A DNA stretch of 64,000 bases from positions 124,001-188,000 of the forward strand of contig PCBK01000029.1 of the NCBI GenBank assembly GCA_002731275.1, read 5' to 3'. The stretch's first letter is position 1. The number at the start of each line of letters is the position of its first letter. Made by a program: the position numbers and the translations under genes. The notes beneath the pieces were generated by a model, which saw only the letters and a program-made list of their open reading frames with translations, made no database searches and was not told where the DNA came from. Origin of the DNA: Deltaproteobacteria bacterium (lineage in GTDB: Bacteria; Myxococcota_C; UBA6777). Shown piece by piece: positions 9,412 through 22,667 of this stretch.

Positions 9412-12260
9412 CAGGTACACATCAAATTGCGGTCACCATACGCATCGTCGACACGGCCGACAGCAGGCCAGAACTTATGTTGCTTCAGCCAGGACGCAGG
9501 GAACGCGGCTTGTTCTCGGGTGTATGGGTGTGGCCACTCTGTGGAGACGACGTCATCCATGGTGTGAGGAGCATTTTTGAGTGGGTTGTCGTCTTTGTCG
9601 ATCTTGCCATCGATGACCGCTTGGATTTCTTGGCGTATGGAGATCATGGCGTCACAGAATCGATCCAGCTCGGCTTTGGACTCGCTCTCTGTCGGTTCGA
9701 TCATCAGGGTTCCAGGGACAGGCCATGACATTGTAGGTGCGTGGAATCCATAATCCATAAGTCGTTTCGCGATGTCTGCGACTTCGATGCCTGCGCTGTG
9801 TTTGAAGGGGCGCATGTCGAGGATGAATTCGTGCGCGACGAGTCCTTCGTTGCCTGTGTAGAGCAGGTTGAAGTGGTCTTTGAGCTTGTTGGCCATATAG
9901 TTGGCGTTGAGGATCGCGACCTGTGAGGCTTGTTTGAGGCCCTCTGCACCCATCAACGCGATGTAGACCCAGGAGACAGGGAGGATGCTGGGGCTACCAT
10001 AAGGTGCTGCCGAGATGGGGCCGTGTGCGGTCTCGCCGCCCAATCCAGTGACGGGGTGACCTGGGAGGTAGGGGGCGAGCTTGTCATTTACCGCGATCGG
10101 ACCCATACCAGGACCACCGCCACCGTGGGGGATACAGAAGGTCTTGTGTAGGTTGAGGTGACAGACATCTGCGCCAATGTCACCAGGGCGACAGAGGCCG
10201 ACCTGTGCGTTCATGTTGGCACCGTCCATGTAGACGAGTCCACCGCGTTCGTGGATGATCTCACACACGCGCTTCACGGCATCTTCGAAGACGCCATGTG
10301 TGGAGGGGTAGGTGATCATGAGCGCGCCGAGATTGTCGACGTGTTGATCGGCTTTTTTCTCCAGATCGGCGACGTCGATGTCGCCGCGTTCGTTACATGA
10401 GACTGTGACGACCTTCATCCCTGCCATGACCGCGCTCGCGGGGTTGGTCCCGTGTGCTGAGACTGGGATCAGGCAGATGTTGCGATGTGCGCTGTCGTTG
10501 GCGAGGTGATATTGTCTGATGGACAACAGACCTGCATATTCACCTTGTGAGCCAGCGTTGGGCTGAAGAGATGCGGCTGTGAAGCCTGTGATCTCGGCGA
10601 GCCAGCTCTCAAGTGTCTCGAAGAGTTGACTGTATCCTTTGCTCTGCTCTGCGGGGACAAAGGGGTGCAGCAGCGCAAACTCCGGCCAAGTCACAGGTAA
10701 CATCTCGGACGTCGCGTTGAGCTTCATTGTGCAGGAACCCAGTGGGATCATCGATGTGTTGAGCGAGAGGTCTCGGCTCTGTAGGCGGGTGAGGTAGCGC
10801 AACATCTCGTGCTCGGCTTGATAGCTATGGAAGACGGGGTGGTCGAGATATTCACTCTCTCTTGTAAACGCACCAAAGTCTGTACTGCTCTCTGCTTCGA
10901 GCGATGCAATGCTGAATGGGAGCGTGTCTGCATCGTTGAAGACGTCGAGCAGGTCTTCGATGTCTTGTTGGGTCACGGTCTCGTCGAGGGAGATGCCGAT
11001 GCCTCCACCTTCGAATGCGCGCAGGTTGATTTGCTTTTGTAGCGCTGCCGCCATCGCTTTTTGCGTCGCGCCTTCGTCGAGGTTGAGCTTCAATGTGTCA
11101 AAGAATGTGCCTTCTGCGACGGGGATGCCGAGCTTGCTAAGGCCGAGTGCGAGGAGCTTTGTTTTGCCGTGGACTGCGCTTGCGATCGCGCGAAGTCCGT
11201 CTGGGCCGTGGTAGACCGCGTACATGCTCGCCATGATCGCGAGCAGCGCTTGGGCCGTACAGATGTTACTCGTCGCGCGGTCGCGGCGGATGTGCTGCTC
11301 GCGGGTTTGCAACGTCAGGCGATATCCCATGCGGCCTTTTCTGTCTTTGGAGACGCCGATGAGGCGACCGGGCATTTGGCGTTTGAACTTGTCTTTTACG
11401 GACATGTACGCTGCGTGAGGACCACCAAAGCCCATGGGGATACCGAAGCGTTGTGTCGAACCGATCGCGATATCCGCACCAAATTCACCAGGAGCTTTTA
11501 ACACTGTCAGCGCGAGCAGATCGGCAGAGAAGATCCCCAACGCGCCTGCTTTGTGTGTGCGCTCCATGACCTCTGTGTAGTCGTGGACGAGTCCTTCTGT
11601 GTTGGGGTACTGTACGAGCACGCCGAACAGATTGAGGGAGGAAAAATCGAACGTCTGTGGATCGCCGACGTGGACGTTGATCCCGATGGGTTCGGCTCTT
11701 GTCTGTACAACCGCGAGGGTCTGTGGGTGGCAGTCTTCGGCGATGAAGAAGTCTTTCTTCTTTTGTCGGGCGACGTTGTAAGCGAGAGACATCGCTTCTG
11801 CAGCGGCGGTCGCTTCGTCGAGGAGTGAGGCGTTGGACAGTGGCAAGCCCGTGAGATCGCTTGTCATGGTCTGGAAGTTGAGCAGCGCTTCCATACGACC
11901 TTGCGAGATCTCTGCTTGGTAGGGTGTGTACTGTGTGTACCAGCCTGGATTTTCGAGGATGTTGCGCTGAATGACAGGTGGTGTGATGCAGCCGTAGTAA
12001 CCCATCCCTATATATGAACGATAGACTTTGTTTTGGTTGGCCATTTGGCGAAGCTCTTGTAGGAGCTCGTGCTCACCACGTGGGCCACCCAGCGCCAGGT
12101 CTTGCTCCATACGGATGCTCTTGGGGATGACTTTATCAGCCAACGCGTCGAGGCTATCCAACCCCAAACTTTTGAGCATATCTTCCACTTCTTGTGGGCT
12201 CGGGGCGATATGGCGGTGCAAAAAAGTATCCTGGGGGGCAAACAAAGATCGATTGGACAT
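9381..12260 (-). CDS. gcvP: Glycine dehydrogenase (decarboxylating), P-protein of the glycine cleavage system
   Basis: Pyridoxal-phosphate enzyme that decarboxylates glycine and passes the aminomethyl group to the lipoyl H-protein. The start is set at the ATG at 12260, because AGGAGA lies 5 bases upstream and the product begins with the family-typical [15 protein letters not shown]. This gives 959 residues, the normal single-chain length. The pyridoxal-phosphate lysine is in [18 protein letters not shown] (Lys about 706). Other conserved segments are [26 protein letters not shown] near residue 85 and [18 protein letters not shown] in the second half. No gcvT, gcvH or lpd is nearby, so the rest of the complex is encoded elsewhere. 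A C8 tract sits in the last codons. An in-frame extension to 12368 has no ribosome site and is not used here. Confidence 0.97.
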
Positions 12261-12622
12261 ATTGTTCTCCTCATGGCCTTCAACAGGTGATATTTGAAGG
12301 CACTTTTCTGACAAAAACACTCGGGATGATCTACTCATCCATGACGTTCGTTCGTCGTTGTACTGCATTCTGTGCTGGAATGAAAGCCCTGTCGCGCTTC
12401 TCTTTCTTTTTGGATTGGAATTCCTATCTTGTATCGATAGAGCTTCATTTGTCTGGACACGAGCTTGCGTTTGTCGCCAAAGCGTGGAAAAGTGTAAAGA
12501 AGATATGCCCGTGCCTGTTTCTTTTGTTGGTGATGATGACGAGACACATTTCTTCTTTGGTGGGTCATCATTGTGTATCCATTGTCTGCTTGTTTCTCTT
12601 TGTCGCGATAGGAAGAATTGTC
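12261..12622. other. Divergent intergenic region between gcvP and the MopE-repeat lipoprotein
   Basis: About 360 bases separate two divergent starts, so promoters for both genes should lie here. I see the gcvP ribosome site (12266-12271) and that of the lipoprotein (AGGAAG near 12610-12615). I looked for a glycine riboswitch upstream of gcvP and saw no paired aptamer-like conserved elements. No RNA gene is recognisable. Confidence 0.5.
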
Positions 12623-14479
12623 ATGCATACCTCAACATCCCCTCAACATCCTCCGTTTTTTGTTGGACAACTTTTGCGGCGAACACGATGGAGCCTCTAT
12701 CTGGGTGTATTCTCCTTGATGACGCTCTGGAGCGGATGTGGTGAGGTGACTGTCACACAAGTCAGCGGCTGTGAGGATTGTCCCGAACGTTGTATCCGTT
12801 CGACGGAAGGTAGCTCAGGCTCGTGTGTCGATTGTATCGAAGACAAACACTGCCAATCCAACGGCAGCTTGACCCGAAAGTGTCTCGACAACGCTTGTGT
12901 GTGCGGTTCAAACAAGGATTGTCCTGCTGGACTCGTCTGTGGCAGCCCTGACAAAGGAAAGGGTGGCTGTGTGGAGTGCCTGACAAATAACGACTGTGGG
13001 AATGAGGACTTTCCTGTCTGCTCCTACAACGAATGTGTGGCATGTGCGCCAAAAGCCAAGCGTGTCTGTGAGCCAGAAGGCAGTACAGCGTGTGCGAAAG
13101 GAGAGCAGATCTGCCAAAACACAGGAACATGGGGAGAATGTCAGGGGTATACGTTGTGCAAAAGTGGCGAGAAGTGTGTGAACGAGCAATGTGTTCCTGA
13201 CTGCCCTGAGCCTCCACCTTGCACCGAGGTTGGAAAAATCTGCTCCTCCAATATCGATGATCTTCCCGGTGAATACAAAGAATGCACGAAGAGCGCAAAG
13301 GGTTGTTTTGAGCTCAGCGACATCAAACAGTGTGGGGCCAGAGAGTTTTGCGACAAGGGCAGCTGTATCCCATTCACCTGCCCCAAGGCTGAATGTCAAC
13401 TCGACGAGACGCAATGTGCCAACAAAGACGAGTACCGCGCATGTATCAAAGATAAGAATGGTTGTCTAAAGTGGAGCGACAAACAAAAGTGCAAAGAGGA
13501 CGAGACATGTCGAGACTCGCTCAATCGTTGTTCGCTCTGTGAGCCTGGTGAAAAAGAGGTCTGTTATGGAGGCCCCGAGAACACCAAAGGGGTCGGTATT
13601 TGTCGAGCCGGAGAACATGTCTGCGCAGATGATGGGACGAAGTGGGGAGACTGTGTTGGGGTCGTGCTGCCTGTCATCGAGACATGCAACGGTTTGGATG
13701 ATGATTGTAACGGAAAGATCGATGACAATCTGACTCCCAAGCCCTGCGCAAATCAGGTCGGACAGTGTAAAGGAACAGTCGCTCGATGCGGTGGGACAAA
13801 GGGTTGGCTCTCTTGCGAAGAGGCTGATTACCGCAAGACATTCAGTGAGTTTGAGGTCAAAGAGACCTTGTGTGATGGGATCGATAACGACTGTGATGGT
13901 CAGGTGGACAACGGTCTGACACCACAAAAATGTAATCGTAACGTCGGTGTGTGTGTGGGGGCTGTGAAAACGTGTGATGGGCAGAACGGGTGGAAAGCCT
14001 GTACAGACGCAAATTACAAACAAGTCAGCGCGCTGTACGAGAGCGATGAGACTTTGTGTGATGGGAAAGATAACGACTGCGATGGTCTCGTCGATGAACT
14101 GTACCCCAAAAAAGGCACGACCTGTTACGCAGGTGTCGGATCTTGTCGCAAGTCCGGTCGTTATGTCTGTAGTGCTTCGCAAAAAGCCATCGAATGTACT
14201 GCCAAGGCGGGCTCTCCTACAACCGAATCGTGCAATGGACGTGATGATGATTGTGATGGTCGTGTTGACGATAACGCTCCATGTCCTCGCGGTACTGCTT
14301 GCTCTTCTGGCTCTTGTCGTACCTGTTCACAGCCTTCTTCGAAGTGCTCCAACTTCGATCTGTTTTGTACCTCCACCGCCCCCTCTATCAGCTGCAAGTG
14401 TGGCTTTACCTCCTACTGCTATCAAAAGAGCAGCAGCATCTTCTGTAGTGGTTGTTGTGCATGGCGTCGGTGCCATTAA
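12623..14479 (+). CDS. Secreted lipoprotein with MopE-type metal-binding repeats
   Basis: The start is placed at the ATG at 12623 (AGGAAG about 7 bases upstream), giving 618 residues with a hydrophobic segment and lipobox TLWSGC near residue 37. The mature protein is cysteine-rich. Residues about 40-290 carry irregular CxxxxDC and C...GxC modules (for example CTTNNDC-like and CxEGSTAC units). From about 340 there are four copies of the aspartate-rich motif C(N/D)GxDxDC(N/D)Gx(I/V)D, each followed by a Cys-rich spacer; this is the MopE-like putative metal-binding motif common in myxobacterial surface proteins. It ends without an anchor, in a short Cys/Ser-rich tail. It is probably outer-membrane-attached and calcium- or copper-binding; the ligand is inference. 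Related repeats occur in three other genes of the window. Confidence 0.85.
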   Translation: MHTSTSPQHPPFFVGQLLRRTRWSLYLGVFSLMTLWSGCGEVTVTQVSGCEDCPERCIRSTEGSSGSCVDCIEDKHCQSNGSLTRKCLDNACVCGSNKDCPAGLVCGSPDKGKGGCVECLTNNDCGNEDFPVCSYNECVACAPKAKRVCEPEGSTACAKGEQICQNTGTWGECQGYTLCKSGEKCVNEQCVPDCPEPPPCTEVGKICSSNIDDLPGEYKECTKSAKGCFELSDIKQCGAREFCDKGSCIPFTCPKAECQLDETQCANKDEYRACIKDKNGCLKWSDKQKCKEDETCRDSLNRCSLCEPGEKEVCYGGPENTKGVGICRAGEHVCADDGTKWGDCVGVVLPVIETCNGLDDDCNGKIDDNLTPKPCANQVGQCKGTVARCGGTKGWLSCEEADYRKTFSEFEVKETLCDGIDNDCDGQVDNGLTPQKCNRNVGVCVGAVKTCDGQNGWKACTDANYKQVSALYESDETLCDGKDNDCDGLVDELYPKKGTTCYAGVGSCRKSGRYVCSASQKAIECTAKAGSPTTESCNGRDDDCDGRVDDNAPCPRGTACSSGSCRTCSQPSSKCSNFDLFCTSTAPSISCKCGFTSYCYQKSSSIFCSGCCAWRRCH

Positions 14480-14649: not shown

Positions 14650-16632
14650 GTGGCCGGACAGGACGTCACCAAACATCAGCAAACAAAGCATGCAGGCAAG
14701 GCACAAGAGGCGGAGGTGCGAAAGCGTCCACAGGAAACTGTTTTAGAGGCGCCTCATATCAAACCTATTGAGCATTACCTTCGCTCTTGGGAGGCCGATG
14801 AAGATGAATTGCCTCTTGAGTACGAGCACGACGATCACACCTCGCCGTTGATCAAGTCCGTTCGCGAATTTCGACATGAACAGACGATGGCGATGGGGGA
14901 AGATGGGCGCTGGTTACTCGCAGCCCTCACTGATGAGACAGAACCTGCACAGATACAAAAGAAGGACACGCTCCCAAAAACGGAGAGGATCGTACAGAGA
15001 CTGCTCTCCGATTCTCACGCACCTGAAGAGGTCGATGCCTTGTTGGCGCAGGCGGTTGAACAGCTCGCACTGCAACGCCAAAGCAAGGAGCAATGGTCAA
15101 CGTCCCTGTCCAAGAAACACCACATCCCCAAAAGACAACCTGTAAAGTCGCTTCATACAAGTAGTGAACGACTTCATGTCGGAGAGACAGGCGGCTCGCT
15201 AGATGCCTGGCAAATTCGCGAACTCACTTTGCCAGAAGTTCCCAAGATCAAAAAACAAACACAAGCTCCTGGACCGTGGACTGTTGAGACAGCCCACTCC
15301 AGACCGAGGCTGCCAAGTGTCCACGCTCCAGAAACACAAAACCATGAGCACTCCACATCTTCATACTCCCCTACATCCGGGCGCTCTGTGAATGTGTATC
15401 CCAATGGAACGAAGCAGGCACCGAAAAAATGGCGTCGTTTCCAAAGGGCGCTCTCTTTGGAGAATCGCTGTGCAGTGCTTTCACACACGTCCTCTCTCGA
15501 TGCGGTAGACAAAGAGGTCGCACCAGCTCGGATCTCTCGCGAGGGGATCGGTCCGACAGATGTGCGTCGCAGCAGTCTTCGGCCGATAGGACAGTCGGTC
15601 GCGATGCAGTGGTTGGTGTGGAATCCCTCTAAGCGACTCTCTCCATTGTCCGCGCCTGTGTCGCTCAAAGGTCGGTTCGAACGCCTTTCGGATGATGATT
15701 CGTTGGTGCCTACAATGGGCGCAACTGCCACGGAGGGGTGGGATGATCAGGCTGATTGGTCCAATGACGGTCTCCTCGTTGAGAGACCGGCCAAAGTCGC
15801 GTCGCAAGATCAGCTCCCACTGGAGTCATCCTTCTTACATGCTTCGTTTGTCGAGGAGCCTTTGTCCTCTGTGAAAAGTTCATCTGTATCACCTCAGAAG
15901 GAGCATGACGCAGGAGCCAAGCTCTCTGTACAGACGATGTCGGCGTCCTATACTCCTCCTTCATTGACCCTTGAGTACGATTCTTTTGATGTCAAAGATA
16001 TCCCTGGAGAGGAGAAGGCGATGTGGCCTGCTCACGATCTTGGTGCTGACGTCCCACATACGCCTACACTTGGTTATGAGACCTTCCACCAGCCTACGCA
16101 GCCTTCCCTGGAGAGTGATGAAGAGGGAACGGTTGAGCGTCTGCTGACGCTCGCGGAGCAGTTGTCTGAAGAGACCGATGTTGAGGACGTCGTTGTCGAG
16201 GAAGAGGCGCTCAAAAGAGGAGGCGGGGAAAAAGTCGTCGCGTCCTCTGTTGGCGTTAGGCATGACGAAGTGTCCGATATCTATTTTCATTTGGGGATCT
16301 TTTTGGAGCGGGCCGATCGTCTGTTGAAGCACGGAAACGCCACGTTTTTGCATGTCTTTCAGGATTTTGTGGAGACATTTGTCGAAGATCGCTCGCACAT
16401 TTTACAGGAGTATGGATTGGCTGCGCGTCCTGATGCGGCGTATGAGTGGGGCGCACTCGACGAGGACGCTGTACGGGTGATCGAATATATCCTGCTCGCG
16501 ATGGCGTCTTTTTTGCGAAAGGATCGTGAGCAGGCGTCGTTATTACTGACACAAGGTCTACAGGCCTGCCCTACAGCGTCACGTCTGGCAGAGGGGATTG
16601 CGTTGTTGCAGCGGAGGATAGAAGAGTCTTGA
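14650..16632 (+). CDS. Large disordered protein with helical C-terminal domain, first gene of a ParA/Roadblock operon
   Basis: Starts at a GTG with GAGGAG 5 bases upstream; 660 residues. Residues about 35-100 contain a small acidic conserved-looking block (IEHYLRSWEADEDELPLEYE). Residues 100 to about 520 are low-complexity, rich in Ser, Pro, Glu, Gln and His. The last 125 residues are helical, with TPR-like spacing (FHLGIFLERADRLLKHG, EWGALDEDAVRVIEYILLAMASFLRKDREQASLLL). There is no signal peptide or membrane helix, so it is probably cytoplasmic. Its stop overlaps the TTG start of the ParA-like ATPase by 4 bases, and four coupled genes follow. A scaffold or landmark role in a polarity or positioning apparatus is inference from the partners. 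I do not recognise a named family. Confidence 0.65.
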   Translation: MAGQDVTKHQQTKHAGKAQEAEVRKRPQETVLEAPHIKPIEHYLRSWEADEDELPLEYEHDDHTSPLIKSVREFRHEQTMAMGEDGRWLLAALTDETEPAQIQKKDTLPKTERIVQRLLSDSHAPEEVDALLAQAVEQLALQRQSKEQWSTSLSKKHHIPKRQPVKSLHTSSERLHVGETGGSLDAWQIRELTLPEVPKIKKQTQAPGPWTVETAHSRPRLPSVHAPETQNHEHSTSSYSPTSGRSVNVYPNGTKQAPKKWRRFQRALSLENRCAVLSHTSSLDAVDKEVAPARISREGIGPTDVRRSSLRPIGQSVAMQWLVWNPSKRLSPLSAPVSLKGRFERLSDDDSLVPTMGATATEGWDDQADWSNDGLLVERPAKVASQDQLPLESSFLHASFVEEPLSSVKSSSVSPQKEHDAGAKLSVQTMSASYTPPSLTLEYDSFDVKDIPGEEKAMWPAHDLGADVPHTPTLGYETFHQPTQPSLESDEEGTVERLLTLAEQLSEETDVEDVVVEEEALKRGGGEKVVASSVGVRHDEVSDIYFHLGIFLERADRLLKHGNATFLHVFQDFVETFVEDRSHILQEYGLAARPDAAYEWGALDEDAVRVIEYILLAMASFLRKDREQASLLLTQGLQACPTASRLAEGIALLQRRIEES

Positions 16633-17441
16633 AGGTAATCGTTTTGACTGGCGCAAAAGGCGGTGTTGGGAAGACGACACTTGCGCTCAATATGGCGTAT
16701 GCATTTGCCCGGCAGGGGAAGCGCACATTGCTCCTTGATACTGATATGCAGGGTGGGATCGCGCTGTCGTTGAGTCGTGGTCTCTCACAGCGAGGGGGAT
16801 GGTTTGAATACGCCACACAGGAGGTCAACGCGCAATCACTGATCGTGTCGACGAATCAGTCTCTTTTGCATATCTTGCCCCACGGCCAAGTTGTCTTCTC
16901 CGAGCTTGTTGCCTTTGAGAGAGCGATGCAGTCCGGTCATGCGCTACAGCGTCTACGCGATGAGCTTGGTGATCTGTACGATCTTTGCATCGTGGATCTG
17001 CAAACCGGATTGGACTTGCGGGCTGCAGGGATGATCGATAAGGCCGACTTTCTGATCGCGCCGCTCGCTGCAGAGCCGCTCTCGGCGCGTGTCGTGCCAC
17101 ACGTTTTATCGTTTGTTTCGCAATGCCAGAAGGCTGGCGCGCCCTCTCTCTTTTTGGGTTTTGTGTTGACGATGTGGCAGGCCGCTGATGCCCAATCCAC
17201 GAAGGTCGTGCAGGAGATCCGTACGCGGTTTCCCGAGTCGTTTTTGTTTTACACGATCATCTCCCATGATGAAGCCTTTGTCGACGCCAACGAACTCGGA
17301 ATGCCTGTTGGTATGTTGCGCACCCCCCCTCCCGCTGTTGCGATGTTGTTTGAGCAGCTCTGTGTGGAAGTTGAACGCCGTATGCAGATGACTACTGAGG
17401 AACCGAATCATGAGCCGCGATATCTTGTGGATCGAAGCTGA
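16629..17441 (+). CDS. MinD/ParA-family ATPase
   Basis: A 270-residue P-loop ATPase of the SIMIBI class. It has the deviant Walker A with both signature lysines (AKGGVGKTT; Lys10 and Lys15), Walker A' LLLDTDMQGG near residues 34-43 and a VDLQTGLD switch near 123. These are the features of ParA/MinD proteins that dimerise on ATP and position DNA, proteins or polar complexes. It has no N-terminal DNA-binding domain and no ParB gene beside it, so chromosome or plasmid partition is unlikely; positioning of a protein assembly is more plausible. The start is TTG, overlapping the stop of the previous gene by 4 bases; an AUG alternative would lose the P-loop. It overlaps the next gene by 32 bases. 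Confidence 0.85.
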   Translation: MKVIVLTGAKGGVGKTTLALNMAYAFARQGKRTLLLDTDMQGGIALSLSRGLSQRGGWFEYATQEVNAQSLIVSTNQSLLHILPHGQVVFSELVAFERAMQSGHALQRLRDELGDLYDLCIVDLQTGLDLRAAGMIDKADFLIAPLAAEPLSARVVPHVLSFVSQCQKAGAPSLFLGFVLTMWQAADAQSTKVVQEIRTRFPESFLFYTIISHDEAFVDANELGMPVGMLRTPPPAVAMLFEQLCVEVERRMQMTTEEPNHEPRYLVDRS

Positions 17442-18405
17442 CGATCTTAAAGACCTCTTCTCACAGGTTGAGGCAACCCCCCATTCTGAACGAGTTGACG
17501 CGCCTACCGCGACCTACGATGACTTTGTCTTGCTTCCCCAAGAAGAGCTTCAGGCACAGTTACGCACACATCTCTCTCCCCCACGGCCACCCACTGTCGA
17601 AACATCACCCCCCCACAAAGAGCCCTTGTTACAGGAGAGATTTGAGAGCCCATTTAAACAACGTCGTCCTGCCCAACCTGAAGAGGGCGTTGGTGAGGCT
17701 CACAGCGCATTCGTAAAGAAAGACGCAGAGGAGCGTTCCTCTGCGTCTTTTCATTCTCTACACGCTGCGCTCTCGCGACCTCTGTCACATTCTCGATGGA
17801 AGGCTGCGCCGGCTGAAGTTGCGTTGTCTCTGTCCAAAGAGTTGGAGCTCGCGATTGGTTTTGATGTCCAGGACGATATTGAGTGGTCGCTCCCCCCGAC
17901 AGAAGATCACGAAGTCGCGACAGAGGAGCTCCCTGAGCCTGAGACGATGCCGATCTTTACGGGGAATACGGATCGGGAGGGCGTGAACGCCTTGCCATTG
18001 CCTTCGAGTCTTCGGACGGGGGATCTACAAGAGCGTTTGGACGCATTCTTGACTTGGTTGATGCCGTCGACCGGGAGCTATATGGCGTATATTGCCGATG
18101 GTGAGGGACTTCCCCTCGCGAGTGTCTTTGCGACGGATGAATACTTGGCGCTTGGGAGTCTGTTACCTCCACAAATCCTCTTCCCACTGAAGATGTTTTT
18201 CCCCGAACAGTACCAGGAGTCCGTACTCCTTCATCAGCTCTCTTTTCAGCTCAACGAGGAGTATTTTTTGCAGCTCTTTTGGATGACGACATCACTCGGT
18301 CCAATGACGTTGGGGTTGGTGTTACCGGAGGCGTTAAGTGGTGCACAGCTCCACACGTTGTACGTGATCTTGATGACGATTCTCAAAGAAACGAAGGGAC
18401 AATGA
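17410..18405 (+). CDS. Roadblock/LC7-like protein with long disordered N-terminus
   Basis: A 331-residue protein. Residues 1 to about 195 are low-complexity and acidic. From about 200 the sequence DLQERLDAFLTWLMPSTGSYMAYIADGEGLPLAS has the Roadblock/LC7 layout: a helix, then a strand carrying the '(A/V)xxxDGxxLA' turn, then a long helix and two strands (LFWMTTSLGPMTLGLVLP). Roadblock proteins act as GTPase regulators or scaffolds (MglB is the best-known bacterial example). No Ras-like GTPase is in the operon; the ParA-like ATPase takes its place. The start overlaps the ATPase stop by 32 bases and the gene ends one base before the next start. A strong terminator-like hairpin lies inside the coding region at 17719-17751, at about residues 104-114. 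Confidence 0.65.
   Translation: MSRDILWIEADDLKDLFSQVEATPHSERVDAPTATYDDFVLLPQEELQAQLRTHLSPPRPPTVETSPPHKEPLLQERFESPFKQRRPAQPEEGVGEAHSAFVKKDAEERSSASFHSLHAALSRPLSHSRWKAAPAEVALSLSKELELAIGFDVQDDIEWSLPPTEDHEVATEELPEPETMPIFTGNTDREGVNALPLPSSLRTGDLQERLDAFLTWLMPSTGSYMAYIADGEGLPLASVFATDEYLALGSLLPPQILFPLKMFFPEQYQESVLLHQLSFQLNEEYFLQLFWMTTSLGPMTLGLVLPEALSGAQLHTLYVILMTILKETKGQ
17719..17751 (+). terminator. Terminator-like hairpin inside a coding region
   Basis: A 14-base-pair perfect stem (17719-17732 with 17737-17750), a 4-base loop GCGT and a run of T at 17748-17751 form a textbook intrinsic-terminator shape. It lies inside the Roadblock-like gene, in the disordered N-terminal part. Because both arms carry AAAG/CTTT ends it could work on either strand. 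The role as an attenuator is inference. Confidence 0.5.
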
Positions 18406-18406
18406 T

Positions 18407-19000
18407 GTGATGTCTTCACTCGATCTGGCGCTCGCGATCCAGGGGATACCTTCTCTACGTGGTGTGTTTGTGACTGCGTTGCCTGAATGCCTCCTGTTTG
18501 ATGCCTTGCTCTCCGAAGAACACCAAGACACGAAGTCCGTCGAAGAGGTCGCGATGTTATTTGGTGAATTGCTACAAACCAACCAACGTACACTCCAGTT
18601 ACTCGGCGCGCAGCAGCCACATGCGCAGCTGCTCGTTGAACACCAAGAGATGCTGTTTTGTATTCGCCCGTTGCCCTTCCAGTTTGCGCTTGGGATCATC
18701 TATGAGCCGGACGTTCCGCTCGGTTTGGTCCGTGTGTTTGCCAGTCAGATCGCAGGGCATATCACGAGTCAGCTGGAAGACATCGCGCGCCAAGCTGGTT
18801 CACGTGGAGGTGTTCTTCTTGACTATGCGCTTGGTCATCTTCCCGAACCGTCAACGGTTGTACGTCGCCTCTCTCTCCGGACAGGTATCCCCATGGACAC
18901 CCTCCATCAGCCCGCGCTTCTCAGCGAAAAGGAGACCGAGCTCCTTGAGGGGGCTGTGTGTGATATTCTTGGTGTCGAACATATCGAGCTAGCGTCATGA
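18407..19000 (+). CDS. Roadblock/LC7-like small protein
   Basis: A 197-residue protein (a start at the ATG at 18410 is equally possible; the GTG at 18407 has better ribosome-site spacing to AAGGGA). Residues about 10-120 fit a Roadblock fold: IPSLRGVFVTALPECLLFDALL as first helix-strand-turn, a helix on VEEVAMLFGELLQTNQRTLQLLG, and two strands on LLVEHQEMLFCIRPL and FALGIIYEPDVPLGLVRV, the last being the typical 'hhhhv.....~.g..r' strand-to-helix step. The canonical DG turn is replaced by PE. A second small helical region follows (to residue 197). It overlaps the following gene by 4 bases (ATGA). Its neighbours suggest that it partners with the preceding Roadblock-like protein. Confidence 0.55.
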   Translation: MMSSLDLALAIQGIPSLRGVFVTALPECLLFDALLSEEHQDTKSVEEVAMLFGELLQTNQRTLQLLGAQQPHAQLLVEHQEMLFCIRPLPFQFALGIIYEPDVPLGLVRVFASQIAGHITSQLEDIARQAGSRGGVLLDYALGHLPEPSTVVRRLSLRTGIPMDTLHQPALLSEKETELLEGAVCDILGVEHIELAS

Positions 19001-20250
19001 TGAAGTACGAACTCCACTATATCCCTCAACATGAGCTGACATTTTTGTCGGATGTGCCGATCGTATATCACAGCCACCATTACACGTTGTTTTTGGAGCA
19101 TGTGCTCGAAGACGCGCTTGGTTGGGAGGTCTCTTTCCAGGAGCGTTTTTTGGCTGCGCGTGAGGTCGCGTCTGTGTTGTTGTCTGGCATGGCGGAAAAG
19201 AGGGGGCTGACAAGCGTAGAGAGTCGGCAGTTATTGTCCGAGCAGCTCTTTGCAGTGATGGGATTGGGGCTGCTCAAGTTGCCGTCAGGTCGTCATGATA
19301 TGGCCTCATCGAGTCCTTCATCATTTCAGGGTGTTGGTTGGCTCGACAAGTACAGCGCCGCGCTCAAGCGTCACCATCCTATGGATGCGCTCTCACTTGG
19401 TTACGCGGCGGCGGCGACGGAGGTGATGTTCGATTTCCCTCGTGAATCTGTGCTCGGACAGGAGAGCGCGTGTGTCGCGATGGGAGCGAGGGAGTGTGCC
19501 TTTACATTCCATCCTGGGACACCTGCTGTGCGGATGAGGCACATCGGAAAACGAGAGTGCGAGCGTGTGGTGAAGCCCTCTTTTTCAAGCATTCGCGAGC
19601 GGGATGTTGCGCGATTTGCGGAGCGGATCAATCGCCGTTTTGAGAAGATTATGCCTGACGGACGGGGCTTACTCTCACGTTTTGATTTGCTGTTATCCCG
19701 GCAGATGGCGACCTACCTGAGCCGTATCACGTATCGCACCCTGGACCTTCTCTCCGATCGTCCCGAAGCACAAAAAACACTGCGTTCTTTACTGCGAGAA
19801 GCTGGCGTGATCGGAGCGATGCACTTGTTTGGTCATCTCATGGAGTCCAAGGCATGGCAAGAGTGGTTTGAGGGTTTTGGAGGCGCTCCTGAGGAGGTCA
19901 TCCTGAGCGGCTGTTCGATTGGTCGCGCGTTGGGCTATGGTCATTGGTGTATTCATGACTTTGAACCTTACAGCCATCTGATTTTGCGCACACCAAGCTC
20001 GTATGAGAGCAATTATCACGTGCTGCGTCGAGAGGTCGCGAGAGAAGGGCAGTGCTTCTTTTTTCAGGGCGCTGCACAAGCGATCGCACAGCTCGCTCAC
20101 GAAGTCCATTGGCAATCCGCGCACGACTTCTCTATGGAGTACGACCGCATCTCGGCGCTCCCCCACCGCTGGTCTGCAGAGGAGACAAAGTGCATCTCTT
20201 GTGGGGATGATTTTTGTGAGGTCGTCGTCCAACGTGTGCCTCACCCCTAA
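18997..20250 (+). CDS. Protein with two V4R-like (4-vinyl reductase) domains
   Basis: A 417-residue protein whose ATG overlaps the preceding stop (ATGA). It appears to contain two copies of a ligand-sensing domain of the V4R type. The first ends near residue 170 with SACVAMGARECAFTFHPG; the second ends at the C-terminus with ETKCISCGDDFCEVVVQRV, which keeps the C-xx-C...G(D/N)xxC pattern typical of the V4R metal or ligand site. The helix-rich linker between them is about 150 residues long and contains FFQGAAQAIAQLAHEVHW near 365. V4R domains are small-molecule-binding modules in regulators. No DNA-binding domain, kinase or membrane helix is visible. It closes the five-gene operon. The ligand is unknown. 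Confidence 0.6.
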   Translation: MMKYELHYIPQHELTFLSDVPIVYHSHHYTLFLEHVLEDALGWEVSFQERFLAAREVASVLLSGMAEKRGLTSVESRQLLSEQLFAVMGLGLLKLPSGRHDMASSSPSSFQGVGWLDKYSAALKRHHPMDALSLGYAAAATEVMFDFPRESVLGQESACVAMGARECAFTFHPGTPAVRMRHIGKRECERVVKPSFSSIRERDVARFAERINRRFEKIMPDGRGLLSRFDLLLSRQMATYLSRITYRTLDLLSDRPEAQKTLRSLLREAGVIGAMHLFGHLMESKAWQEWFEGFGGAPEEVILSGCSIGRALGYGHWCIHDFEPYSHLILRTPSSYESNYHVLRREVAREGQCFFFQGAAQAIAQLAHEVHWQSAHDFSMEYDRISALPHRWSAEETKCISCGDDFCEVVVQRVPHP

Positions 20251-20309: not shown

Positions 20310-20360
20310 AAGCATCTGAAAGTGCAGCTATCTTTTTTGTCATTTGGGAGGTTGAAGGTG

Positions 20361-22667
20361 ATGAAACAAGTCCCCTACGGACGTTATGTATGGAGCGTCC
20401 TTATTGTGTGTATCGGGTTCTTTGGTGCGATCCAAACAGCAGAAGCTGTTTGCGCGACGCCCGATGTTTTGATCGTGTTGGACCGCTCTTGCAGTATGGG
20501 AGGGGGAAAGTGGAACAGCGCTGTCGCAGCAATCAAGACCATCACCAACCAATACAAAGGCAAGCTGCGCTTTGGACTCGCGACGTTTAACTCGGGTGCC
20601 AGCGTTAACTACGGTATCAACAACTGCATCGCCGACGGCGTGACGACACAGTGTGTGCCAAAACTCCAGAACAAACTCAATGCACTCGGAGCGTCAGGTG
20701 GAACCAACCTTGTCGCCGCGATGAACACCGCGACAACACACCTCAAGTCGATCAAGAACGCAGACAATGTCAAAGCCCGTAAACGCAGCGTCATGTTTAT
20801 CACGGACGGTCAGGCTTCTTGTGCCAACTCACAAGTCAGCTCGTTGTTTAGTCAGGTCGGCGCCAAAACCTTCGTCATCGGCTTCGGTAGTGGCGTCGAT
20901 GCAAATTGCCTGAACAACATGGCTGCGGCTGGTAAAACTGCGCTCTCAGCCTCCCGTAAATATTACCAAGCCGACAACAGCAGCGATCTCAACAAGGCGA
21001 TGAAGGCCATCGCCGACGCAAGCTCCGCTGAAGTTTGTAACAACCTCGACGATGACTGTGATGGTCAAGTTGACGAAGGTCTCAAGAAAGCCTGCTCCTC
21101 CAAGTGTGGACCCGGACAACAAGTATGTAGCGCTGGTAAGTGGGGAGCCTGCTCCGCAACCAACCCCATCGCCGAGACTTGTAACAACAAAGATGACGAC
21201 TGCGATGGTCAAGTTGACGAAGGTCTCAAGAAAGCCTGCTACTCCGGCGCTGGTTGTACCAAAAATGGCAACAGCTACACCTGTAAAGGGATCTGTAAGG
21301 CCGGTACATCAACGTGTTCAAAGGGACAGTGGGGCGCATGTCAAGGCACCGTCAAACCCGGTACGGAGACCTGTAACGGTAAAGATGATGACTGTAACGG
21401 TTCCGTCGACGAAGGTCTTCGTAAAGACTGCTCCAACCAATGTGGGAAGGGTGAAGACCTCTGCACCAACGGAAAATGGACGGGTTGTAACGCACCCCAA
21501 CCGACCGCTGAGACATGTGATGGGAAGGACAACGACTGTAACGGCCAAATTGACGATGGTCAGGAGCAAAACTGTCGCAGCAAGTGTGGAAGTGGTAAAA
21601 AACTCTGTCGCTTTGGTCAATGGACTGCATGTCTCGCCCCTCAACCTCAACCAGAGGTCTGTGATGGAAAAGACAACGACTGTGACGGACAAATCGATAA
21701 TCAGGCATCTTGTCCTGGCACATTCGTTTGTCAGTCTGGAAAATGTCTGCCTGCCTGTAACAACGGCGAGTGCGCAAAAGGACTCAAGTGTGTCAACGGC
21801 TTCTGTGAAGGTGATGCTTGCGCAACTGTGAACTGTCCTGCCGGAAAATCATGTGTCGCCGGTCGCTGCTTCTCGCCTTGTGAGCTGATCAAATGTGACA
21901 AAGATTACACCTGTGACAGTGGCAAATGTGTGAAGCAAGACTGTTACATCAAGGGCTGTCCTAACGGCGAAATCTGTGAGTACGGTGTCTGTACTGCTGA
22001 CCCATGTGCCAACAAAAATTGCCCCAGTGGCGAATTCTGTCGTGCCGGTTTCTGCGTTGGCTCCTGTACAAACGTCAAATGTGCAACCGGAGAATCTTGT
22101 AAAGATGGTAAGTGTGTTGCAGATCCTACAAAAACCGGTGATTGTGCAAATGTCACCTGTGCCCATGATGAGCAATGTGTCAGCGGAAAGTGTGTTGCTG
22201 GTCCCTGTAAAGGTGTCACATGTCCCAAAGGTCGCGCCTGTGTAGACGGAAAATGTGAACACGACCCATGCCTCAATGTGACATGCCCCACTGGTGAATT
22301 CTGTGACAATGGTCAATGTGTTGGTAACCCACCACCCAAACCTGACGGTAGCAGCGCTGATGGAGTCACCAACCCCGATGGTGGGACAACCAATCCTGAC
22401 GGCAGTACGACCAGCCCTGACGGTAACACCACGACCAACCCCGATGGAAGCACCACAACCAACCCTGATGGTAACGGTACGACCAACCCTGATGTCCTGA
22501 CTTATGAGGCGAACAACACTGGGAATGAGGGTTCAACGACCAACACTCCAAGACGCCAGGACCCAGGCGGATGTGCTTGTGCTGTGAACAACAGAGCACC
22601 TGTTGAAGTCCTCTTCTTCAGCATCTTCTTCCTCTTCTTCTTTGGTCTCCTCCGACGCCGCCGATAA
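20361..22667 (+). CDS. Surface protein: vWA domain, MopE repeats, Cys modules and MYXO-CTERM-like tail
   Basis: Start at the ATG at 20361 (an upstream frame opens at 20322 but has no better ribosome site). A signal peptide covers about residues 1-30 and ends near AEAVC. Residues about 32-220 form a von Willebrand A domain with MIDAS elements: DRSCSMGG (DxSxS), GTNLVAAM and FITDG. Next come five MopE-type repeats (CNNLDDDCDGQVDE and relatives) with Cys-rich spacers, then six or more 'C...CP.Ge.C..G.C' modules, then a stretch of NPDG repeats. The end is Cys-containing, followed by a hydrophobic helix and RRRR, as in MYXO-CTERM sorting signals. The protein is probably on the outer surface and acts in adhesion. 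Two 37-base exact repeats lie in the MopE region. Confidence 0.88.
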   Translation: MKQVPYGRYVWSVLIVCIGFFGAIQTAEAVCATPDVLIVLDRSCSMGGGKWNSAVAAIKTITNQYKGKLRFGLATFNSGASVNYGINNCIADGVTTQCVPKLQNKLNALGASGGTNLVAAMNTATTHLKSIKNADNVKARKRSVMFITDGQASCANSQVSSLFSQVGAKTFVIGFGSGVDANCLNNMAAAGKTALSASRKYYQADNSSDLNKAMKAIADASSAEVCNNLDDDCDGQVDEGLKKACSSKCGPGQQVCSAGKWGACSATNPIAETCNNKDDDCDGQVDEGLKKACYSGAGCTKNGNSYTCKGICKAGTSTCSKGQWGACQGTVKPGTETCNGKDDDCNGSVDEGLRKDCSNQCGKGEDLCTNGKWTGCNAPQPTAETCDGKDNDCNGQIDDGQEQNCRSKCGSGKKLCRFGQWTACLAPQPQPEVCDGKDNDCDGQIDNQASCPGTFVCQSGKCLPACNNGECAKGLKCVNGFCEGDACATVNCPAGKSCVAGRCFSPCELIKCDKDYTCDSGKCVKQDCYIKGCPNGEICEYGVCTADPCANKNCPSGEFCRAGFCVGSCTNVKCATGESCKDGKCVADPTKTGDCANVTCAHDEQCVSGKCVAGPCKGVTCPKGRACVDGKCEHDPCLNVTCPTGEFCDNGQCVGNPPPKPDGSSADGVTNPDGGTTNPDGSTTSPDGNTTTNPDGSTTTNPDGNGTTNPDVLTYEANNTGNEGSTTNTPRRQDPGGCACAVNNRAPVEVLFFSIFFLFFFGLLRRRR
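21060..21240 (+). repeat. Exact 37-base direct repeat within the vWA/MopE gene
   Basis: The segment beginning GATGGTCAAGTTGACGAAGG is identical at 21060-21096 and 21204-21240, with 107 bases between. It encodes the aspartate-rich metal motif and the start of the following spacer, and is the least diverged of several related copies, so it is probably a recent duplication or gene conversion. Confidence 0.8.

Follow-up and report, generated by a model that had tools for sequence, protein, structure and literature searches.

The stretch of bacterial DNA analysed here (64,000 nucleotides, hereafter the window) is part of contig C34, 232 kb long, in a draft genome of 10.75 Mb, and at its centre of interest stand five closely packed genes, g1 to g5, which bring together a scaffold-type protein, a ParA-type ATPase, two Roadblock proteins and a tandem V4R protein. 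All five are open reading frames on the + strand: g1 (14650-16632, start GTG), g2 (16629-17441, TTG), g3 (17410-18405, ATG), g4 (18407-19000, GTG, with an ATG at 18410 equally possible) and g5 (18997-20250, ATG). Of their four junctions, the first two are overlaps (4 and 32 bases), the third is a gap of 1 base and the last a further overlap of 4 bases, in exact agreement with the coordinates given in an earlier annotation made from the letters alone (the sequence-only reading). A GAGGAG resembling a ribosome-binding site stands ahead of g1, and the overlaps suggest that translation of the five genes may be coupled. Promoter and terminator scans of the window gave scores no better than those of shuffled sequence. 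The sequence-only reading had called g2 a MinD/ParA ATPase, g3 and g4 Roadblock-like and g5 V4R-like, and had proposed profile searches to check these calls; profile and structure comparisons identify g2 as a ParA-type ATPase, g3 and g4 as Roadblock proteins and g5 as a V4R protein. Wrong Roadblock or V4R calls, or genes never adjacent in other genomes, had been named as grounds for refutation, and on both points the outcome favours the sequence-only reading.

The product of g2 (270 residues) is of the ParA/Soj type, with matches to Pfam AAA_31 (3.4e-23) and CbiA (4.6e-15) and a family profile that retrieves ParA (3e-40) and Soj (1e-37) from the PDB; its best NCBIfam match, below threshold, is BcsQ. 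Its deviant Walker A motif, KGGVGKTT (16656-16679, +), contains K10 and K15, the two signature lysines noted in the sequence-only reading. Across the 18 copies compared, the signature lysine, the Walker A' aspartate and the Walker B aspartate are invariant, and the full set of catalytic residues is kept in 17. The C-terminal tail, judged by eye against the membrane-targeting amphipathic helix of MinD, is short and acidic and ends in LVD, LFA or LLV across copies. No member of the ParB family was found among the five proteins in Pfam and NCBIfam scans.

By profile and fold, g4 (197 residues) is a Roadblock/LC7 protein of MglB-like character with an additional C-terminal helical domain. A profile built from 16 family members places MglB in all six of its top PDB matches (best 1.7e-4) and also finds the genome's own MglB (1.7e-7), while an AlphaFold2 (AF2) model (mean predicted local confidence, pLDDT, 88.4) arranges its strands and helices in Roadblock order, its residues 1-129 aligning to LAMTOR, an archaeal Roadblock protein and MglB with Z of about 13 (VIA). 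Pfam Robl_LC7 was not matched by g4 either as a single sequence or in an alignment scan, nor was any NCBIfam family. The helical domain (residues 133-188; 18803-18970, +) is conserved, and scanning the alignment against Pfam gave it no convincing family.

The second Roadblock protein, g3, opens with a conserved motif, MSRDILWIEADDLKDLFSQV (17410-17469, +), whose pattern S-x-x-W/Y-x-x-D/E...L..L is kept across paralogues and Myxococcota copies and whose coding region shares 32 bases with the 3' end of g2; a disordered, variable, low-complexity linker follows, and then a C-terminal domain (residues 199-331; 18004-18402, +). As modelled, this domain has a Roadblock fold (pLDDT 83.9, topology alpha-beta2-alpha-beta3-alpha): taken alone, the model finds MglB at the top of a Foldseek search (2.3e-4), and the best VIA match is again MglB (6hjm_A, Z 12.1, 118 residues aligned, root-mean-square deviation 3.1). 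A single-sequence search with g3 returned no Pfam or NCBIfam match, the whole-protein family profile returned low-complexity matches and no Roadblock match from the PDB, and a profile match to the genome's own MglB was weak (5e-4). As sequence support is weak, the assignment is therefore a structural one.

At the end of the cluster, g5 encodes a protein of 417 residues that, by its sequence, is a tandem V4R protein of the sensor type, with two stretches matching Pfam V4R (8.3e-7). On its own, the window copy scores 29.4 bits against PF02830, where the curated cut-off is 31; of its relatives, 15/20 match that family, the best at 1.1e-10, and a PDB sequence search with the g5 family returned the V4R protein MJ1460 alone, at E 0.14. 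The two C...G..C ends (C159...G163...C167 and C399...G403...C407), from which V4R units had originally been proposed, each belong to a pattern resembling a metal site. The first, E156-x2-C159-x7-C167 (19462-19497, +), is invariant in 20/20 aligned copies, and the cysteines of the second, E396-x2-C399-x7-C407 (20182-20217, +), are present in only 9/20. Other invariant residues are H25, H27, H28 and W115. MopR also contains the E-x2-C element. In the phenol sensor DmpR, zinc is held by Cys151, Glu172, Cys177 and Cys185, and a strictly conserved Trp128 lies between zinc and phenol (PMC7264223). The C-x7-C spacing of g5 agrees with that of DmpR, and no conserved fourth cysteine was seen in g5. Compared with the V4R/XylR_N ligand sensors (DmpR, PoxR, MopR), g5 shares a V4R domain, zinc-site-like E..C-x7-C residues and a conserved tryptophan, but differs in having two V4R units and neither an AAA+ nor a DNA-binding domain, so that its output would pass through neighbouring proteins.

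Tandem V4R relatives of g5 also occur without g4 (L116, L117, L118, L119, L127, L128, L131 and L133), and several of these solo copies adjoin PAS-HisKA-HATPase-receiver proteins (L116, L118), an Hpt/HATPase PAS protein (L131) or MCP-CheB-CheR genes (L128). Because its relatives keep such company, with PAS/histidine kinases and chemotaxis genes, g5 is most likely a sensory input. The term 'ligand-gated', applied to the cluster by the sequence-only reading, gains only indirect backing, from these neighbours and from the E-x2-C-x7-C pattern, in which g5 retains the metal site typical of V4R domains that sense ligands. Some g4-less copies adjoin genes for class V aminotransferases resembling cysteine desulfurases. 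In some genomes, the tandem halves are encoded by separate adjoining genes (L129:7023-9127, L130:7681-9055), an arrangement suggesting either a fusion at the origin of g5 or a later split.

The first gene, g1, encodes 660 residues, mostly of low complexity, and is the modular part of the cluster, unlike the other four genes. The window copy returned no match in single-sequence Pfam or NCBIfam scans. Close to its N-terminus lies a conserved motif, SWEADEDELPLEYE (residues 46-59; 14785-14826, +), with counterparts SWEADESELPLEYE in the copy on contig C66 and SWQASELELPMEYD in that of genome G002, and its TPR-like C-terminus is shared with TPR proteins that hold the same position at other loci. 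The description of g1 as a disordered scaffold needs one correction, in that the protein has both the motif and the TPR-like end besides its disordered parts. Elsewhere the position is filled by proteins with TPR at both ends or with DUF4388 and TPR (L114), and on contig C108 (L006) by one with an N-terminus that is receiver-like by eye, followed by a Pfam Ser/Thr protein kinase domain and a TPR-like tail; at that locus (L006:4481-11401) a receiver-Hpt-receiver (REC-Hpt-REC) gene directly follows g5.

The adjacency of these genes, a survey of which had also been proposed, is retained well beyond the window: the cluster genes stay neighbours in other genomes, and 21 loci, distributed over at least 18 mostly myxobacteria-like genomes, carry the complete series g2-g3-g4-g5. 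These loci comprise the 18 loci used for the comparison of residues and distances, the C66 copy and loci L142 and L143. Three copies belong to the window genome itself (contigs C34, C66 and C108), whose phylum is represented by five genomes in the searched collection, and the closest relatives carrying the genes are metagenome-assembled genomes (MAGs) deposited as 'Myxococcota bacterium'. The recurrence of one gene order at so many loci, in proteins only ~30-40% identical to those of the window, excludes a chance arrangement, and because one cluster (L124) lies on a chromosome assembled as a single contig of 13,235,919 bases, an artefact of metagenome assembly is excluded too.

Linkage is closest between g4 and g5. 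A scan of genome contigs found g4 immediately upstream of g5 at 16/16 loci; among 377 genomes from the same phylum as G069, the g5 family was matched in 38 and g4 in 13 (14 loci), with g4 directly beside g5 at all 14 and g2 and g3 also present at 11, the remaining three ending at a contig edge. Linkage as tight as this (14/14) is enough to predict that the two proteins form a direct complex. Pairwise evolutionary distances, uncorrected for shared species history, follow the same grain: they correlate at 0.92 between g4 and g5 and 0.88 between g2 and g3, and at 0.66-0.81 across these pairs, and 0/2000 permutations reached the observed correlation for the pairs tested. Two loci dispense with g2 and g3 altogether, one holding TPR-g4-g5 only (L028, in a MAG labelled Methyloprofundus) and the other g4-g5 only (L037, in a Thermoanaerobaculia MAG). 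Since correlations are highest within each pair, and since g4 and g5 occur apart from the others at these two loci, the cluster is best seen as two joined modules, g2 with g3 and g4 with g5. It follows from L028 and L037 that the ParA-type ATPase is the output of one version of the system and not an obligatory partner of g4. At a further locus (L030:9250-9400), the end of the TPR gene in the g1 position is followed by the first codons of a ParA gene, MKVLAVVSQKGGV, and a stop, and then directly by g4, which may be a scar left by deletion of g2 and g3 or a misassembly of the contig.

Gene order, domain identities, the intact catalytic residues of g2, co-inheritance and the placing of g5 relatives beside other signalling outputs are together consistent with a dedicated signal-transduction operon in which a ligand-gated ParA switch runs from g5 through g4 to g3 and g2, and from there to g1, a reading that we favour tentatively and rate at somewhat less than probable. 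As input, g5 would bind either a ligand of hydrophobic or aromatic nature or a cue linked to metal, and g4, its obligatory neighbour, would read its state. With g3 as the dedicated partner of g2, the two Roadblock proteins could jointly form a platform that sets g2 in either an ATP-bound dimeric or a hydrolysed monomeric state. The TPR/disordered protein g1 may then be what g2 acts on, a scaffold or a cargo with a location or binding partners set by g2. We infer that g5 binds a ligand, that the Roadblock proteins control the ATPase and that positioning is the output, and likewise what the cargo is and how, and in which direction, the parts are coupled.

Several observations weigh against this switch. 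Adjacency alone is no proof that a Roadblock protein acts on ParA, and the distance correlations carry no correction for shared species history. The Walker A lysine of g2, a lysine in 17/18 copies, is replaced by arginine in the C108 paralogue, and the C66 paralogue is frameshifted at a (CT)7.5 repeat within its coding region (L005:6029-6043), which may represent phase variation, decay or an assembly error. The DNA-binding arginines of Soj are R189 and R218 in B. subtilis numbering (PMC3778016); when their positions in g2 are assigned by alignment to T. thermophilus Soj, that of R218 is basic in 0/18 copies and that of R189 is arginine in 7/18 and alanine in the window copy. Because these positions are not kept, positioning of the ParA type, based on the nucleoid, is doubtful here, and classical nucleoid surfing by the window g2 is, on its residues, doubtful too. 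Lastly, MglA is encoded elsewhere in 16/18 of the genomes searched.

This last point bears on the suggestion, made in the sequence-only reading, that the ParA-type ATPase takes the place of the Ras-like GTPase. No Ras-like GTPase gene occurs in the cluster of the window, and in the genome PF00025 is matched on contigs C16 and C23 only; but the C23 match is a canonical mglB-mglA pair, apart from the cluster, and because the genome carries this normal pair the replacement is unproven. Across genomes, PF00025 matched mostly large frames resembling translation factors, and the survey of MglA was made with an MglA protein as the query. Beside two paralogous Roadblock proteins of the window genome (C36, C100) and another of its ParA proteins (C69), no V4R cluster was found.

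The same facts feed the alternative that survives best, in which g3 and g4 act on ordinary MglA, so that the operon tunes the MglA/MglB polarity switch by a V4R signal, with ParA and the TPR protein as a separate output encoded in the same operon. Among Roadblock proteins, g3 and g4 are nearest to MglB by profile or fold, and MglA is present in the window genome and in most of those with the cluster. Set against this, none of the clusters showed a GTPase gene, and g3 tracks g2 (0.88) and is missing where g2 is missing (L028, L037). MglA was moreover not detected, beyond marginal matches, in two draft MAGs, G062 (TPR-g4-g5) and G065 (the full cluster). We regard this alternative as rather unlikely. 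Relative to the MglA/MglB switch of Myxococcus and Thermus, the cluster has in common an MglB-type Roadblock protein, the expectation of a P-loop NTPase partner and an origin in the same broad bacterial group, but its NTPase is of the ParA and not the Ras-like type, its two Roadblock proteins differ from one another, a V4R sensor is linked to them and mglBA lies separately in the genome.

ParA/MinD-family proteins commonly position assemblies within the cell, and g2 might accordingly be a positioning or assembly ATPase like FlhG, BcsQ or PomZ serving a sensory or envelope complex, with g3, g4 and g5 as the positioned complex (cargo adaptor and receptor) and no regulation of a nucleotide switch. 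The sub-threshold match of g2 to BcsQ would fit such a role, as would the MCP-CheB-CheR genes and histidine kinases beside g5 relatives and the scaffold-like g1, whether TPR or of low complexity. Roadblock proteins, however, are known mainly as regulators of or platforms for NTPases, and two in one operon would be unusual for mere cargo. We judge this account unlikely. Like the ParA/MinD positioning systems (ParABS, PomXYZ, McdAB, FlhG, BcsQ), g2 is Soj-type, with a deviant Walker A motif and all catalytic residues; unlike them, it has no ParB-like partner, is accompanied by Roadblock and V4R proteins and does not conserve the DNA-binding arginine positions of Soj.

A prokaryotic TRAPP-like membrane tether, in which V4R (Bet3-like) and Roadblock/longin-like subunits form a layered complex with the ATPase in the place of Rab, is very improbable. 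In its favour are the homology between V4R and Bet3 (PMC2253512) and the co-occurrence of Roadblock, longin and TRAPPC3-like proteins in Asgard archaea (PMC10933270). Against it, the best folds for g3 and g4 are Roadblock (MglB, LAMTOR) and not longin, none of the linked genes is a membrane or vesicle gene, and V4R sensor domains are a frequent part of ordinary signalling. What the cluster shares with TRAPP and the Asgard TRAPPC3-Roadblock sets is a V4R/Bet3 fold and a member of the Roadblock/longin superfamily beside a P-loop NTPase, from which it departs in the SIMIBI class of its ATPase, in having Roadblock and not longin, and in showing no sign of membrane tethering. The actinobacterial conservons (CvnA-B-C-D) are likewise operons in which an input protein is joined to a Roadblock protein of the MglB type and to a switch NTPase; they encode a sensor resembling histidine kinases, a protein that contains a DUF and a GTPase of the Ras-like type (PMC13343842). 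None of the conservon families (sensor kinase, DUF742, Ras-like GTPase) was found in the five window proteins by Pfam and NCBIfam scans.

Roadblock proteins are known to regulate small GTPases, or to serve them as platforms, in settings that range from bacteria to mTORC1 signalling in humans, and the ParA/MinD ATPases are known as machines of cellular positioning. That the cluster is the first Roadblock-regulated switch built on a ParA-type ATPase in place of a Ras/Rag/Arf-like GTPase, gated by a V4R ligand sensor, is possible and on balance doubtful; if true, the reach of Roadblock regulation among P-loop NTPases would no longer end at small GTPases and would take in the MinD/ParA class. With the conserved operon it becomes possible to test concretely whether Roadblock control goes so far, and the pairing of V4R with Roadblock, elsewhere a topic of work on TRAPP and the related Asgard proteins, gains a genetically testable bacterial system. 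In full-text searches of open-licence literature, no paper brought V4R, Roadblock and ParA together in a single system, and a signalling operon composed of all three looks like an undescribed combination.

A role in defence against phage was considered and dropped, as a PADLOC scan gave just weak matches to the ATPase fold. The window genome holds a fourth g5 paralogue (C131, L007:11949-13241) near a contig end, preceded by a gene resembling short-chain dehydrogenases, with no g2-g4 on the stretch read. In many solo contexts and many Myxococcota clusters, the window excepted, g5 is followed by a small gene of ~100 residues (L114:10647-10958, L115:1516-1812, L039:11235-11558, L116:10097-10483, L028:2652-2981, L037:11221-11502), with the pattern C..x-L-x-W ... 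TGR-x-Q/E-I/L-R and no Pfam match in the two scanned. The cluster of the window is itself flanked by genes (12194-14479 and 20322-22667, both +) for cysteine-rich proteins with repeated motifs of the CDGxDNDCDG type, the second of which is also von Willebrand A-like at its N-terminus.

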